Source of the DNA: a virus
Direction: 5' to 3' (one strand)
DNA length: 33,411 nt
Virus record (IMG/VR): IMGVR_UViG_3300009488_000014
Location: 1-33,411 of that record
Shown here: one piece after another, positions 9,475 through 21,934 of the stretch
How positions within the stretch are numbered: position 1 is the stretch's first letter
How the letters are laid out: every line of letters begins with the position of its first letter
Notes under the pieces: generated by a model
Told to the model about the DNA's origin: nothing
What the model saw: only the letters and a program-made list of their open reading frames with translations
The model's database searches: none
Translations under genes and position numbers: made by a program

Positions 9475-9911
9475 GTTTAGTGGATGTTAATATACTAATC
9501 AGAACTTATTTACTGACCTCTACGGCTATTACAGACCCTCTCATTGCCCTTATAGGTGGTGCTGGCAATGAGAGAATGTATCAGGGACGATTGCCTGAAA
9601 ATGTGACACTTCCAGCGGTAAGTTTTTTAACTCGGGGCGGCGGTTCATCCCATAAAAGACCCGCTGGAGTTTGGCCGAGTATTCAATTTGACTGCTGGGC
9701 CGAAAGTCCCATAGTTGCCAGGCAGGTTTATCGTGCTTTATATGATGCTCTTCAGGGATTAGGCAATGCTCCAGTCGTGGTAGATGGAAATACTTATCAT
9801 ATAATCCAAGCACGGGAGGAGGTTCAAGGTCAAGATTTACAGGATATTGATATTCCCGGGTACTATCGGGTAATCACTTTTTATCAGGTCACAATAAGAG
9901 ATGACCTTTAG
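9471..9911 (+). CDS. Tail terminator/completion protein (DUF3168-like)
   Basis: This 146-residue protein fits DUF3168: a helical start (VDVNILIRTYLLTSTAITDPL), then ERMYQGRLPENVTLPAVSF, SIQFDCWAES, then a helix (ARQVYRALYDAL), and a C-terminal VITFYQVTIRDDL strand. Such proteins cap the tail tube and fix its length end. ATGA overlap with the gp10-like gene. It is followed by the tail tube gene, as is normal. Confidence 0.8.
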   Translation: MSLVDVNILIRTYLLTSTAITDPLIALIGGAGNERMYQGRLPENVTLPAVSFLTRGGGSSHKRPAGVWPSIQFDCWAESPIVARQVYRALYDALQGLGNAPVVVDGNTYHIIQAREEVQGQDLQDIDIPGYYRVITFYQVTIRDDL

Positions 9912-16552: not shown

Positions 16553-16653
16553 CAGGCGTAAAATACCCCACTTCACAAAATAGTCTGCCTTTGGGAACAA
16601 GTATTAGATCAAGTTCCGTTGGTTTGTTCCGTGAGCACTGTGTAAATTACTTT

Positions 16654-16690
16654 CCCCCCTCTCCTTCGAAGGAGAGGGGGGATATTTTTT
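16654..16690 (+). terminator. Rho-independent terminator 2 of late operon
   Basis: A perfect 12-bp stem (16654-16665 with 16670-16681) with TCGA loop is followed by ATATTTTTT. The arm CCCCCCTCTCCTTC also occurs in terminator 1, so one may be a copy of the other. About 100 bases between the two hold only a weak GGAAC/GTTCC repeat and no gene. Confidence 0.9.
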
Positions 16691-16720
16691 GTTTATTGAT
16701 AAAAATAGTTGAAAAACCTA

Positions 16721-16750
16721 TTGACAAGGGGTATACCCCTGTGTTATAAA
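16721..16750 (+). promoter_or_regulatory. Early sigma-70-type promoter
   Basis: TTGACA at 16721-16726 and TATAAA at 16745-16750 are separated by 18 bp (17 bp if TTATAA is read as the -10). It lies about 40 bases before the first early gene, after the late terminators. It should drive the early genes from 16790 on. Confidence 0.85.
16727..16740. promoter_or_regulatory. Palindromic operator in the early promoter spacer
   Basis: AGGGGTATACCCCT is a perfect 14-bp palindrome that begins right after the -35 box. A dimeric regulator bound here would block or remodel the promoter. G-tract/TATA/C-tract sites are known for CsoR/RcnR-like metal regulators, but no such gene is seen here. The small ribbon-helix-helix-like protein at 16987 is one candidate. 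It could also be a host regulator. Confidence 0.6.
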
Positions 16751-16789
16751 GAGGGTGCACAGACAAAGGAATAGAGAAAGGGGGTAGAA

Positions 16790-17800: not shown

Positions 17801-17810
17801 GAGATATAAA

Positions 17811-17963
17811 ATGAACAATAAAGGATTACCCTGCCCGGTAAGAGAGAGACAGGGACGTTATCTACTCTGTCAAGAAGGGGAATGCTCAATCTGCCAGATA
17901 GAACTTGATAGACCAGCACTTAAACAAATTGATGACAAAAATTCAATGAATGATGCCCTATAA
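17811..17963 (+). CDS. Small Cys-rich protein, paralogue A
   Basis: This 50-residue protein has GLPCPVRERQGRYLLCQEGEC followed by SICQ, giving four cysteines. It is clearly related to the product at 18568 (same VRERQG and LCQEGEC core). RBS TAGGAG precedes ATG 17811. Probably binds zinc. Function unknown. Confidence 0.6.
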   Translation: MNNKGLPCPVRERQGRYLLCQEGECSICQIELDRPALKQIDDKNSMNDAL

Positions 17964-18295: not shown

Positions 18296-18571
18296 ATGGA
18301 ATATACAAAAGGAGAATGGGCTCTTAGGAAGCTAAAGGAGGATGTGTTTGGTCTTTTGTACGGGGATGATACCAATGATGGTTTTGACTTTGGTATAGAT
18401 TTAAGTCCATCTCAAATAATAGAACTCGTTGATTTTATCTTTGATGGTACACCTGTATTCAAGTCAGCCCCAAAGTTATATGAGGCACTCAAGGAGGCAC
18501 TAGAAAAGAGTCACAACCCCGAAGTTGAAAAGATACTAATGGCAGCCCTAGCCGAAGCGGAGGATAAATGA
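18296..18571 (+). CDS. Small KGEW...LYEALKEALE phage protein
   Basis: This 91-residue protein starts MEYTKGEW and ends SAPKLYEALKEALE plus a helical tail, a pattern found in many unrelated phages. I choose ATG 18296 because GAGGAGGAAG lies just before it. The same frame is open further upstream, with ATG 18212 as an alternative that would add RRQINKILKEKEVDF. Function unknown. It overlaps the next start by 4 bases (ATGA-type). Confidence 0.65.
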   Translation: MEYTKGEWALRKLKEDVFGLLYGDDTNDGFDFGIDLSPSQIIELVDFIFDGTPVFKSAPKLYEALKEALEKSHNPEVEKILMAALAEAEDK

Positions 18572-18738
18572 ACCATAAAGGACAACCCTGCTCGGTAAGA
18601 GAGAGACAGGGAAAATATAAGCTCTGCCAGGAAGGTGAATGTGAGCTGTGTAATATAAGTATAGAGATGTATACGATAGGGGAGAAGCAGCTTGACCATC
18701 TCAGGGCAATGAAGGAAGCCTATAAAGGGAGGAAATGA
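18568..18738 (+). CDS. Small Cys-rich protein, paralogue B
   Basis: This 56-residue protein has GQPCSVRERQGKYKLCQEGEC followed by ELCN, matching the product at 17811 over its first 30 residues. It then has its own helical tail (EKQLDHLRAMKEAY). The DNA of the two genes shares a 20-base identical stretch around the VRERQG codons, so this is a recent duplication. Function unknown. Confidence 0.6.
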   Translation: MNHKGQPCSVRERQGKYKLCQEGECELCNISIEMYTIGEKQLDHLRAMKEAYKGRK

Positions 18739-19292: not shown

Positions 19293-19952
19293 ATGACAGA
19301 TAAAGGAACTTGTAAGAAATCTAAGGCACACGTAATCTACAAGCTGGAGGATGGGACTAAAATTCCTGGTGTCACAACGGTTCTCGGAATATTGAACAAG
19401 CCAGCCCTCGTTATATGGGCTAATAAACTTGGCCTTCAGGGTATAGATAGTTCAAAGTACCGAGACGAAATGGCTAGTATTGGTACTCTTGCTCACCAGA
19501 TGATAGTTGACTACTTCAATGAGATTGAGACAGACACAAGCGACTATTCCATAAACCAAATAGAACTGGCCGAGAACTGTCTTTTATCGTTTTGGGAGTG
19601 GGAAAAGGGACATAAAATAAAGGTCATTATGGCAGAGAAACAGATGGTCTCTGCTAATTACGGCTTTGGGGGAACGATAGATTGCTTCTGTGAACTTGAT
19701 GACCGACCAACCCTACTTGACTTCAAGACTGGCAAGGCAATATACCCTGAGATGCTTTACCAACTGGCTGCATATAATCAATTACTCTTCGAAGCTGGCT
19801 ATCCCCTTAATATGAATAGAATACTCCGCATAGGCAGGGATGAGAGTGAAGGGTTTGAAGAAAGGCTGATTACCGATACATCTAAACACTTTGAATTATT
19901 CAAACATTGCCTAGCAATCTATCATCTACAAAAAGAGATAGGAAGGAATTAA
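19293..19952 (+). CDS. PD-(D/E)XK exonuclease (RecB/Cas4-like)
   Basis: This 219-residue nuclease carries the family motifs: GVTTVL early on, GTLAHQ with His68, Glu115, GFGGTID with Asp130, LDFKTGK with Asp143 and Lys145, and QLAAYN (Gln157 to Tyr161). RecB-like phage nucleases process DNA ends for recombination or replication. It lies one codon before an OB-fold protein, the usual exonuclease plus ssDNA-binding pairing. RBS AAAGGAG precedes ATG 19293. It is not next to cas genes, so a phage recombination role is more likely than a CRISPR one. Confidence 0.85.
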   Translation: MTDKGTCKKSKAHVIYKLEDGTKIPGVTTVLGILNKPALVIWANKLGLQGIDSSKYRDEMASIGTLAHQMIVDYFNEIETDTSDYSINQIELAENCLLSFWEWEKGHKIKVIMAEKQMVSANYGFGGTIDCFCELDDRPTLLDFKTGKAIYPEMLYQLAAYNQLLFEAGYPLNMNRILRIGRDESEGFEERLITDTSKHFELFKHCLAIYHLQKEIGRN

Positions 19953-21069: not shown

Positions 21070-21294
21070 ATGGCTTTACTGAGTAAAATTTTAGTAGACG
21101 CAACTGGCTTGACAGAGGAGGAAATAAAAGCAAAACTCCTCAAGCTTATACCAAAAGAAAAATACCAAAGAATCAAGGGAAGGAATAAGGGCTATAATCT
21201 CTGGGACAATCCTTATGGGGAAAAGAGCTGGGGATTTTTAACAGATTGCCTAGGTTCTGACCCCGATAGATTAATTAGTATCTTAAAAACTTAA
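21070..21294 (+). CDS. Small helical protein, unknown
   Basis: This 74-residue protein has LTEEEIKAKLLKLIPKEKYQRI and KGYNLWDNPYG, then a helical end. RBS GAGGAGG precedes ATG 21070. It is the last gene before the long non-coding stretch at 21295-21696. The family is not recognised. Confidence 0.55.
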   Translation: MALLSKILVDATGLTEEEIKAKLLKLIPKEKYQRIKGRNKGYNLWDNPYGEKSWGFLTDCLGSDPDRLISILKT

Positions 21295-21305
21295 TATAGC
21301 TTACT

Positions 21306-21678
21306 AACTGGGGTACACAAAGTGAATACTGTAGGTGCTGACCAGCCCCAGTTTTTAAGGCTTGCTGGTATCTTCGTGACCTTTGGCAAGGGTGGGTCTG
21401 TAATCTGCTCTGGGAGCATCCTAAGTCCACAACAGCCAGCCACTGTGCGGGGAATACAGGGAAGAGCCAGCAAGTAACCTGCCAGTTACCCGAAGGGGTA
21501 TTGAGTGTCGGGGTTAGTGCTCTTAGAATGCATCTCATTTAGAGACCCATTCGGCTGGAACGAACACGCTGGCAGGGTATATGGTTAGGGAGTGGGTACG
21601 ACAGAAACTAAGTGGGATACCCTCCACAAAAGTTAAGGATTTGCCGACCACAAATTCAATCTCTGCCCACTCCCAACC
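21306..21678 (+). ncRNA. Unrecognised large structured RNA
   Basis: The 402-base stretch between genes has no credible ORF but holds three closed domains. P1: 21306-21313 with 21346-21353 (8 bp, then five T). P2: 21361-21368 with 21467-21474 (8 bp), enclosing hairpins 21380-83/21388-91, 21407-10/21414-17 and 21432-35/21443-46. P3: 21478-21485 with 21569-21576 (8 bp), enclosing 21487-91/21496-500 and 21533-36/21542-45. P4: 21583-86 plus 21588-96 with 21666-78 (13 bp, one bulged A), enclosing 21612-15/21624-27 and 21638-43/21651-56. P2 to P4 lie head to tail with only a few bases between. I cannot match it to RNase P, tmRNA, SRP RNA or group I/II introns. P1 with its T-run could also end the upstream message. 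Confidence 0.7.
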
Positions 21679-21696
21679 GCCAAGAAGGGGGAAGAT

Positions 21697-21801
21697 ATGA
21701 ATAAAACAACGGAGGTAATATTACTAATATCCCTGGGGATTATATCGAGCGGTATTGTCAGTATAATAATTCTATTAGCAGCTATATTGTATGAAATCTA
21801 A
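21697..21801 (+). CDS. Very small membrane protein
   Basis: This 34-residue product is one hydrophobic helix (VILLISLGIISSGIVSIIIL). AAGGGGGAAG stands just before ATG 21697 and it is the first gene after the structured RNA. Function unknown. Confidence 0.45.
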   Translation: MNKTTEVILLISLGIISSGIVSIIILLAAILYEI

Positions 21802-21814
21802 AATGTAGGTTGAA

Positions 21815-21934
21815 ATGATAAGAGTAATCTGTATAATAATAGGTGGCTTGTTTTATATTATATTTCTAATTAGTTACCCCTTGTTTCTTTTTGGGGGGAA
21901 ATTTCTTGACTGGGTATTTAGGAGTTTGAAGTGA
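21815..21934 (+). CDS. Very small membrane protein
   Basis: This 39-residue product has one long hydrophobic segment (VICIIIGGLFYIIFLISYPL) and a short basic tail. Its stop overlaps the GTG start of the next gene (GTGA). The RBS is weak (GTAGGTTG). Function unknown. Confidence 0.4.
   Translation: MIRVICIIIGGLFYIIFLISYPLFLFGGKFLDWVFRSLK

Follow-up and report, generated by a model that had tools for sequence, protein, structure and literature searches.

Positions 21306-21678 of a 33,411-base IMG/VR virus record, analysed over its whole length and referred to here as the window, are best interpreted as a multi-domain structured non-coding RNA, read from the plus strand as part of an early transcript and probably acting in trans; the probability given to this interpretation is about 0.4. 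The segment is non-coding and GC-rich, and it contains helices that are improbable in shuffled sequence. A sequence-only reading of the same DNA had described it as an unrecognised structured RNA. This is the best single reading and a partly supported one, because the segment is non-coding, is more foldable than its shuffles and matches no Rfam family; nothing positive supports kinship with the phage RNAs GOLLD and ROOL, which that reading had cited as a precedent.

No credible gene lies in the gap that separates a 74-aa ORF ending at 21294 from a 34-aa ORF starting at 21697, in an early region that is otherwise gene-dense. The best ORFs in this gap (21295-21696) encode 51 aa (plus strand) and 87 aa (minus strand) and have no match in Pfam or PHROG, and the codon usage of the genome, sought in every frame, is absent over the segment taken whole. 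These results bear out the sequence-only reading, which had seen no credible ORF in the roughly 400 bases. There is also no sign of a decayed gene, which it had named as an outcome that would overturn it, as Pfam and PHROG recognise no protein remnant. The gap has a GC content of 50.5%, compared with 41.7% for the window, and the segment is the 400-nt stretch of highest GC in the early region. The lack of coding signal and of any protein family among densely packed genes, together with this composition, counts in favour of a structured RNA.

The predicted fold consists of a leading hairpin, P1, and three closed domains (approximately 115, 99 and 96 nt) arranged in a row, with no common closing stem (Table 1). 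Closing helices have predicted ensemble pair probabilities of 0.8-1.0. P1 pairs with probabilities of 0.93-0.99 (z -1.8) and, together with its T-run, could double as a weak terminator for the upstream genes. The outer helix of domain A, with a pair probability of about 0.84, is extended by TCTTC/GAAGA (21371-21375/21461-21465), and the domain has z-scores of -2.0 on the plus strand and -2.6 on the minus strand. Domain B (z -2.7 plus, -4.5 minus) encloses the hairpin TACCC-GAAG-GGGTA and a GAATG/CATTC hairpin. Domain C is closed by a helix of 9 bp (21588-21596/21666-21674) that becomes 13 bp with one bulged A when 21583-21586/21675-21678 are included, and its z-score is -4.2 on the plus strand (0 of 500 shuffles) and -4.0 on the minus strand. 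Exact search found again, at the same positions, all of the helices that had been placed in series from the sequence, the last of them with its bulged A, and the 8-bp leading stem followed by T's is likewise present. The small hairpins described within the domains are predicted in B and C, two inside each.

Table 1. The segment and its surroundings (window positions); P1 and domains A to C are predicted elements, entered on the preferred strand.
Feature	Position	Strand	Details
HNH endonuclease gene, 110 aa	20726..21058	+	PHROG 7370, E 3.5e-9; Pfam HNH, E 1.4e-4
Upstream gene, 74 aa	21070..21294	+	no family in Pfam or PHROG
P1 leading hairpin	21306-21313/21346-21353	+	exact 8-bp helix AACTGGGG/CCCCAGTT, 32-nt loop, then TTTTT
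Domain A	21360..21475	+	closing 8-bp helix CTTGCTGG/CCAGCAAG, 21361-21368/21467-21474 (exact search)
Domain B	21478..21576	+	closing 8-bp helix CCTGCCAG/CTGGCAGG, 21478-21485/21569-21576
Domain C	21583..21678	+	closed by GGTT(A)GGGAGTGGG/CCCACTCCCAACC; two hairpins inside
34-aa hydrophobic peptide ORF	21697..21801	+	start 18 nt past domain C; putative ribosome-binding site AAGGGGGA; no match in Pfam or PHROG
39-aa hydrophobic peptide ORF	21815..21934	+	second in downstream row; no match in PHROG

How often such a series arises by chance was gauged with a score that sums non-overlapping Watson-Crick helices of at least 7 bp in series. The segment scores 33 bp, whereas dinucleotide shuffles average 11.9, and 33 is reached by 3 of 8000 shuffles. 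Its MFE is -143.5 kcal/mol on the plus strand (z -2.4) and -139.9 on the minus strand (z -3.3), with 0 of 100 shuffles on each strand doing as well. These figures, along with the domain z-scores, count for a structured RNA. However, when the same helix-series score was computed at successive positions across the whole window, the segment was equalled by a coding stretch near 9526, so significance at the scale of the genome is only modest; this tie counts against the structured-RNA reading. The earlier claim that the helices are improbable by chance therefore stands against shuffles and is weakened genome-wide. Furthermore, 120-nt windows not framed on the domains are unremarkable within the region. 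It is conceivable, then, that the helices are largely chance pairings in a GC-rich non-coding remnant of decayed or recently acquired DNA, with no RNA function. This would accord with the tie, with the unframed windows, with a whole-segment z of only -2.4 and with the lack of a homologue in any collection searched, but it accounts poorly for the rarity of the helix series among shuffles, for domain C and its 0 of 500, and for a stretch with no recognised protein remnant in an otherwise gene-dense region. Chance is judged less probable than a structured RNA and ranks just behind the leader reading given below.

The strand is left unsettled by folding, since both strands fold about equally well; G-U pairs make up 16 of 131 pairs in the plus fold and 13 of 124 in the minus fold. 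Relative to shuffles the fold of the minus strand is as good as that of the plus strand or better, which counts against the structured-RNA reading. The plus strand is nevertheless preferred because the recognisable surrounding genes all lie on it, a point in favour of the reading, and because P1 has its TTTTT run on the 3' side in that orientation. Near-equal folding of the two strands would also suit an element acting at the DNA level, such as a replication origin whose inverted repeats are recognised as DNA, and an AT-rich stretch (30% GC) does lie at 21700-21900. Yet the segment has no iterons or tandem repeats, there is no DnaA-box cluster or GC-skew switch, arms separated by 50-100 nt are ill-suited to cruciforms, and the replication genes are 4-5 kb distant. 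A DNA element is accordingly improbable.

The segment would be transcribed on the plus strand within the early transcript. As no consensus promoter is apparent directly upstream and no terminator directly downstream, the RNA would be cut from the early mRNA or stay part of it; both absences count against the structured-RNA reading. Elsewhere in the window, at 16640-16760, a perfect 15-bp terminator (TCCCCCCTCTCCTTC/GAAGGAGAGGGGGGA) is followed by T's and then by a consensus-like promoter, TTGACA-18-TATAAA, whose spacer contains the palindrome GGGGTATACCCC, likely an operator. Late and early genes probably meet here. A 76-nt direct repeat (83% identical) occurs at 17809-17884 and 18566-18641, at the starts of two small and apparently paralogous genes.

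Type I toxin mRNAs and attenuators use strongly folded leaders to control small genes. The segment resembles these in folding strongly and in lying immediately ahead of an ORF for a hydrophobic peptide of 34 aa, and it differs from type I toxin-like leaders in having several closed domains and a peptide without a family, with no antisense RNA shown. The main rival reading is a long structured leader or intercistronic element that controls the downstream genes for hydrophobic peptides (34 aa at 21697 and 39 aa at 21815), with P1 and its T-run ending upstream transcription. It is a serious rival because domain C adjoins the 34-aa ORF, which has a good ribosome-binding site. Only 18 nt separate the end of the domain from the start codon, the purine-rich site lies between them, with some of its bases paired in the predicted fold, and a TTTTT run comes after P1. 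On the other hand, the segment lacks a consensus promoter by which a message could begin here; no known regulatory family is found by Rfam, three independent domains exceed what a leader needs, and small hydrophobic ORFs elsewhere in the genome lack such leaders. Control of the peptide genes is thus a less probable role than that of a separate structured RNA, although a real contender.

Rfam 15 gave no match at gathering thresholds across the whole window, and a search of the segment with permissive filters and E up to 10 returned only a chance snoRNA match (E 6.9). ARAGORN detected neither tRNA nor tmRNA genes across the 33.4 kb of the window; the record may itself be a fragment. Insofar as the models reach divergent members, these searches disfavour group I and II introns, RNase P, SRP, tmRNA, HEARO, GOLLD, ROOL and OLE. 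RNase P RNA, tmRNA and SRP RNA were rejected on unmatched Rfam models, with ARAGORN also negative for tmRNA, and a group I or II intron on a conserved catalytic core that went unmatched in Rfam at E up to 10. The ORFs flanking the segment are short orphans, each complete and without homologues, and give no sign of a split gene. HEARO/omega RNA was rejected because Rfam HEARO was unmatched and the nearby HNH protein, at 110 aa, is not IscB. Rfam and ARAGORN thus agree with the sequence-only reading, which could fit the segment to none of RNase P RNA, tmRNA, SRP RNA or group I and II introns; the Infernal search that it had proposed matched no known class even at E up to 10. A divergent group I intron, RNase P, HEARO/omega RNA, GOLLD or ROOL overlooked by the models would be compatible with the size of the segment, which suits several of these, and with the HNH gene close by. 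Such a member would have had to yield nothing beyond a chance snoRNA match in the permissive search, to leave flanking ORFs without a split-gene sign and to sit beside an HNH protein other than IscB, and it is very improbable.

GOLLD and ROOL are phage or prophage RNAs of unestablished function that are often found near tRNA islands; many GOLLD RNAs exceed 800 nt, and ROOL forms cages (PMC12286853). Assembly into RNA-only multimers is characteristic of ROOL. Like ROOL, the segment would be a structured non-coding phage RNA of several domains with no known protein partner; unlike ROOL, it has no Rfam match and no nearby tRNAs, is probably shorter, and has a fold made of predicted helices with no pseudoknots demonstrated. 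It shares with GOLLD the character of a structured phage RNA, but at approximately 375 nt it is about half as long, the Rfam model, which covers the conserved 3' region, is unmatched at the gathering threshold or at E up to 10, and the tRNA context that is frequent, if not strict, in GOLLD is missing. Kinship with the two RNAs, which had been cited earlier as a precedent, is therefore unsupported, and the comparison serves as an analogy only, the segment belonging in neither class.

Relatives of the segment were sought widely. It had no blastn match among phages and plasmids, positions 1-25000 of the window had no megablast match among phages, and no exact 22-mer of the segment was found in IMG/VR. 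Peptide-pattern scans of IMG/VR with both halves gave a single match (L008), judged to be chance on a weak DNA alignment (E 2.6). Neighbouring genes used as bait brought in no homologue of the segment, and the major capsid protein brought in one 4.8-kb contig that also lacked one. With the exonuclease gene (19293-19952) as bait, 65 viral loci and two genome contigs were recovered. Neither blastn and nhmmer nor single-sequence covariance models built on domains A, B and C detected the segment in any of these, and the viral loci hold no counterparts of its flanking genes, so in present data this virus alone has the early region that surrounds the segment. The idea that relatives carry a structured RNA in the corresponding position behind the exonuclease gene was also tested and is unsupported. 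Among 439 bacterial genomes, single-sequence models (B and C over 395 of one phylum, C over 44 of another) revealed no homologue; two weak matches of the domain models fall on one stretch inside a protein gene and were judged chance. The search of related phage contigs proposed by the sequence-only reading thus came back empty. Because single-sequence models and exact patterns reach near relatives only, this absence is weak evidence. It does leave no homologue to align and hence no covariation test of the helices, which counts against the structured-RNA reading.

Several other gene-free or tRNA-like stretches were noted in viral loci. L050 14050-14423, from a virus that carries a distant relative of the exonuclease, is gene-free and folds strongly (z -3.4, 1 of 100 shuffles); it has no Rfam match and is unrelated in sequence to the segment of the window. 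L049 15828-16177 and L065 10924-11161 are gene-free with long helices (z about -2.0 and -1.8) and have no Rfam match; the former also has no match among phages. Directly after the exonuclease gene, L018 680-790 and L022 4690-4966 share a tRNA-like 3' part (48 nt, 92% identical) that ARAGORN does not recognise; L018, also unrecognised by Rfam, resembles a degenerate tRNA with the acceptor AGTGCGGA/TCCGCACT. On the viral contig L052, a piece at 2363-2520 matches the ends of the tmRNA model directly before a tRNA-Met gene.

Methanoculleus virus Blf4 supplies the best protein matches of the window (capsid 30.5%, methyltransferase 43%), together with ANMV-1 for the DUF5131 protein (37%). A bacterial-consensus promoter precedes the early genes and the replication genes are of DnaC type. 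The host is probably an anaerobe, bacterial or archaeal.

For the structured RNA, the most likely role would be to act in trans as a stable RNA in infected cells, by binding to a protein or nucleic acid of the host. Action in trans is favoured because a row of three closed domains looks more like the architecture of large stable RNAs than like that of a switch; like transcription, the strand and the fold itself, it is inferred. That the segment belongs to a novel class of multi-domain structured phage RNA with no relation to GOLLD, ROOL or OLE, and that it acts in trans early in infection of an as yet uncultured and probably anaerobic host, is a tentative and somewhat doubtful proposition. As one sequence without relatives, the segment is a lead and not a class, a plausible but unproven new phage RNA. 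Few large structured phage RNAs are known, and the best-known, GOLLD and ROOL, have no established function. If the reading is true, an unrelated RNA encoded in an early region, the site of host-takeover genes, would point to a diversity of such RNAs beyond the catalogued classes.
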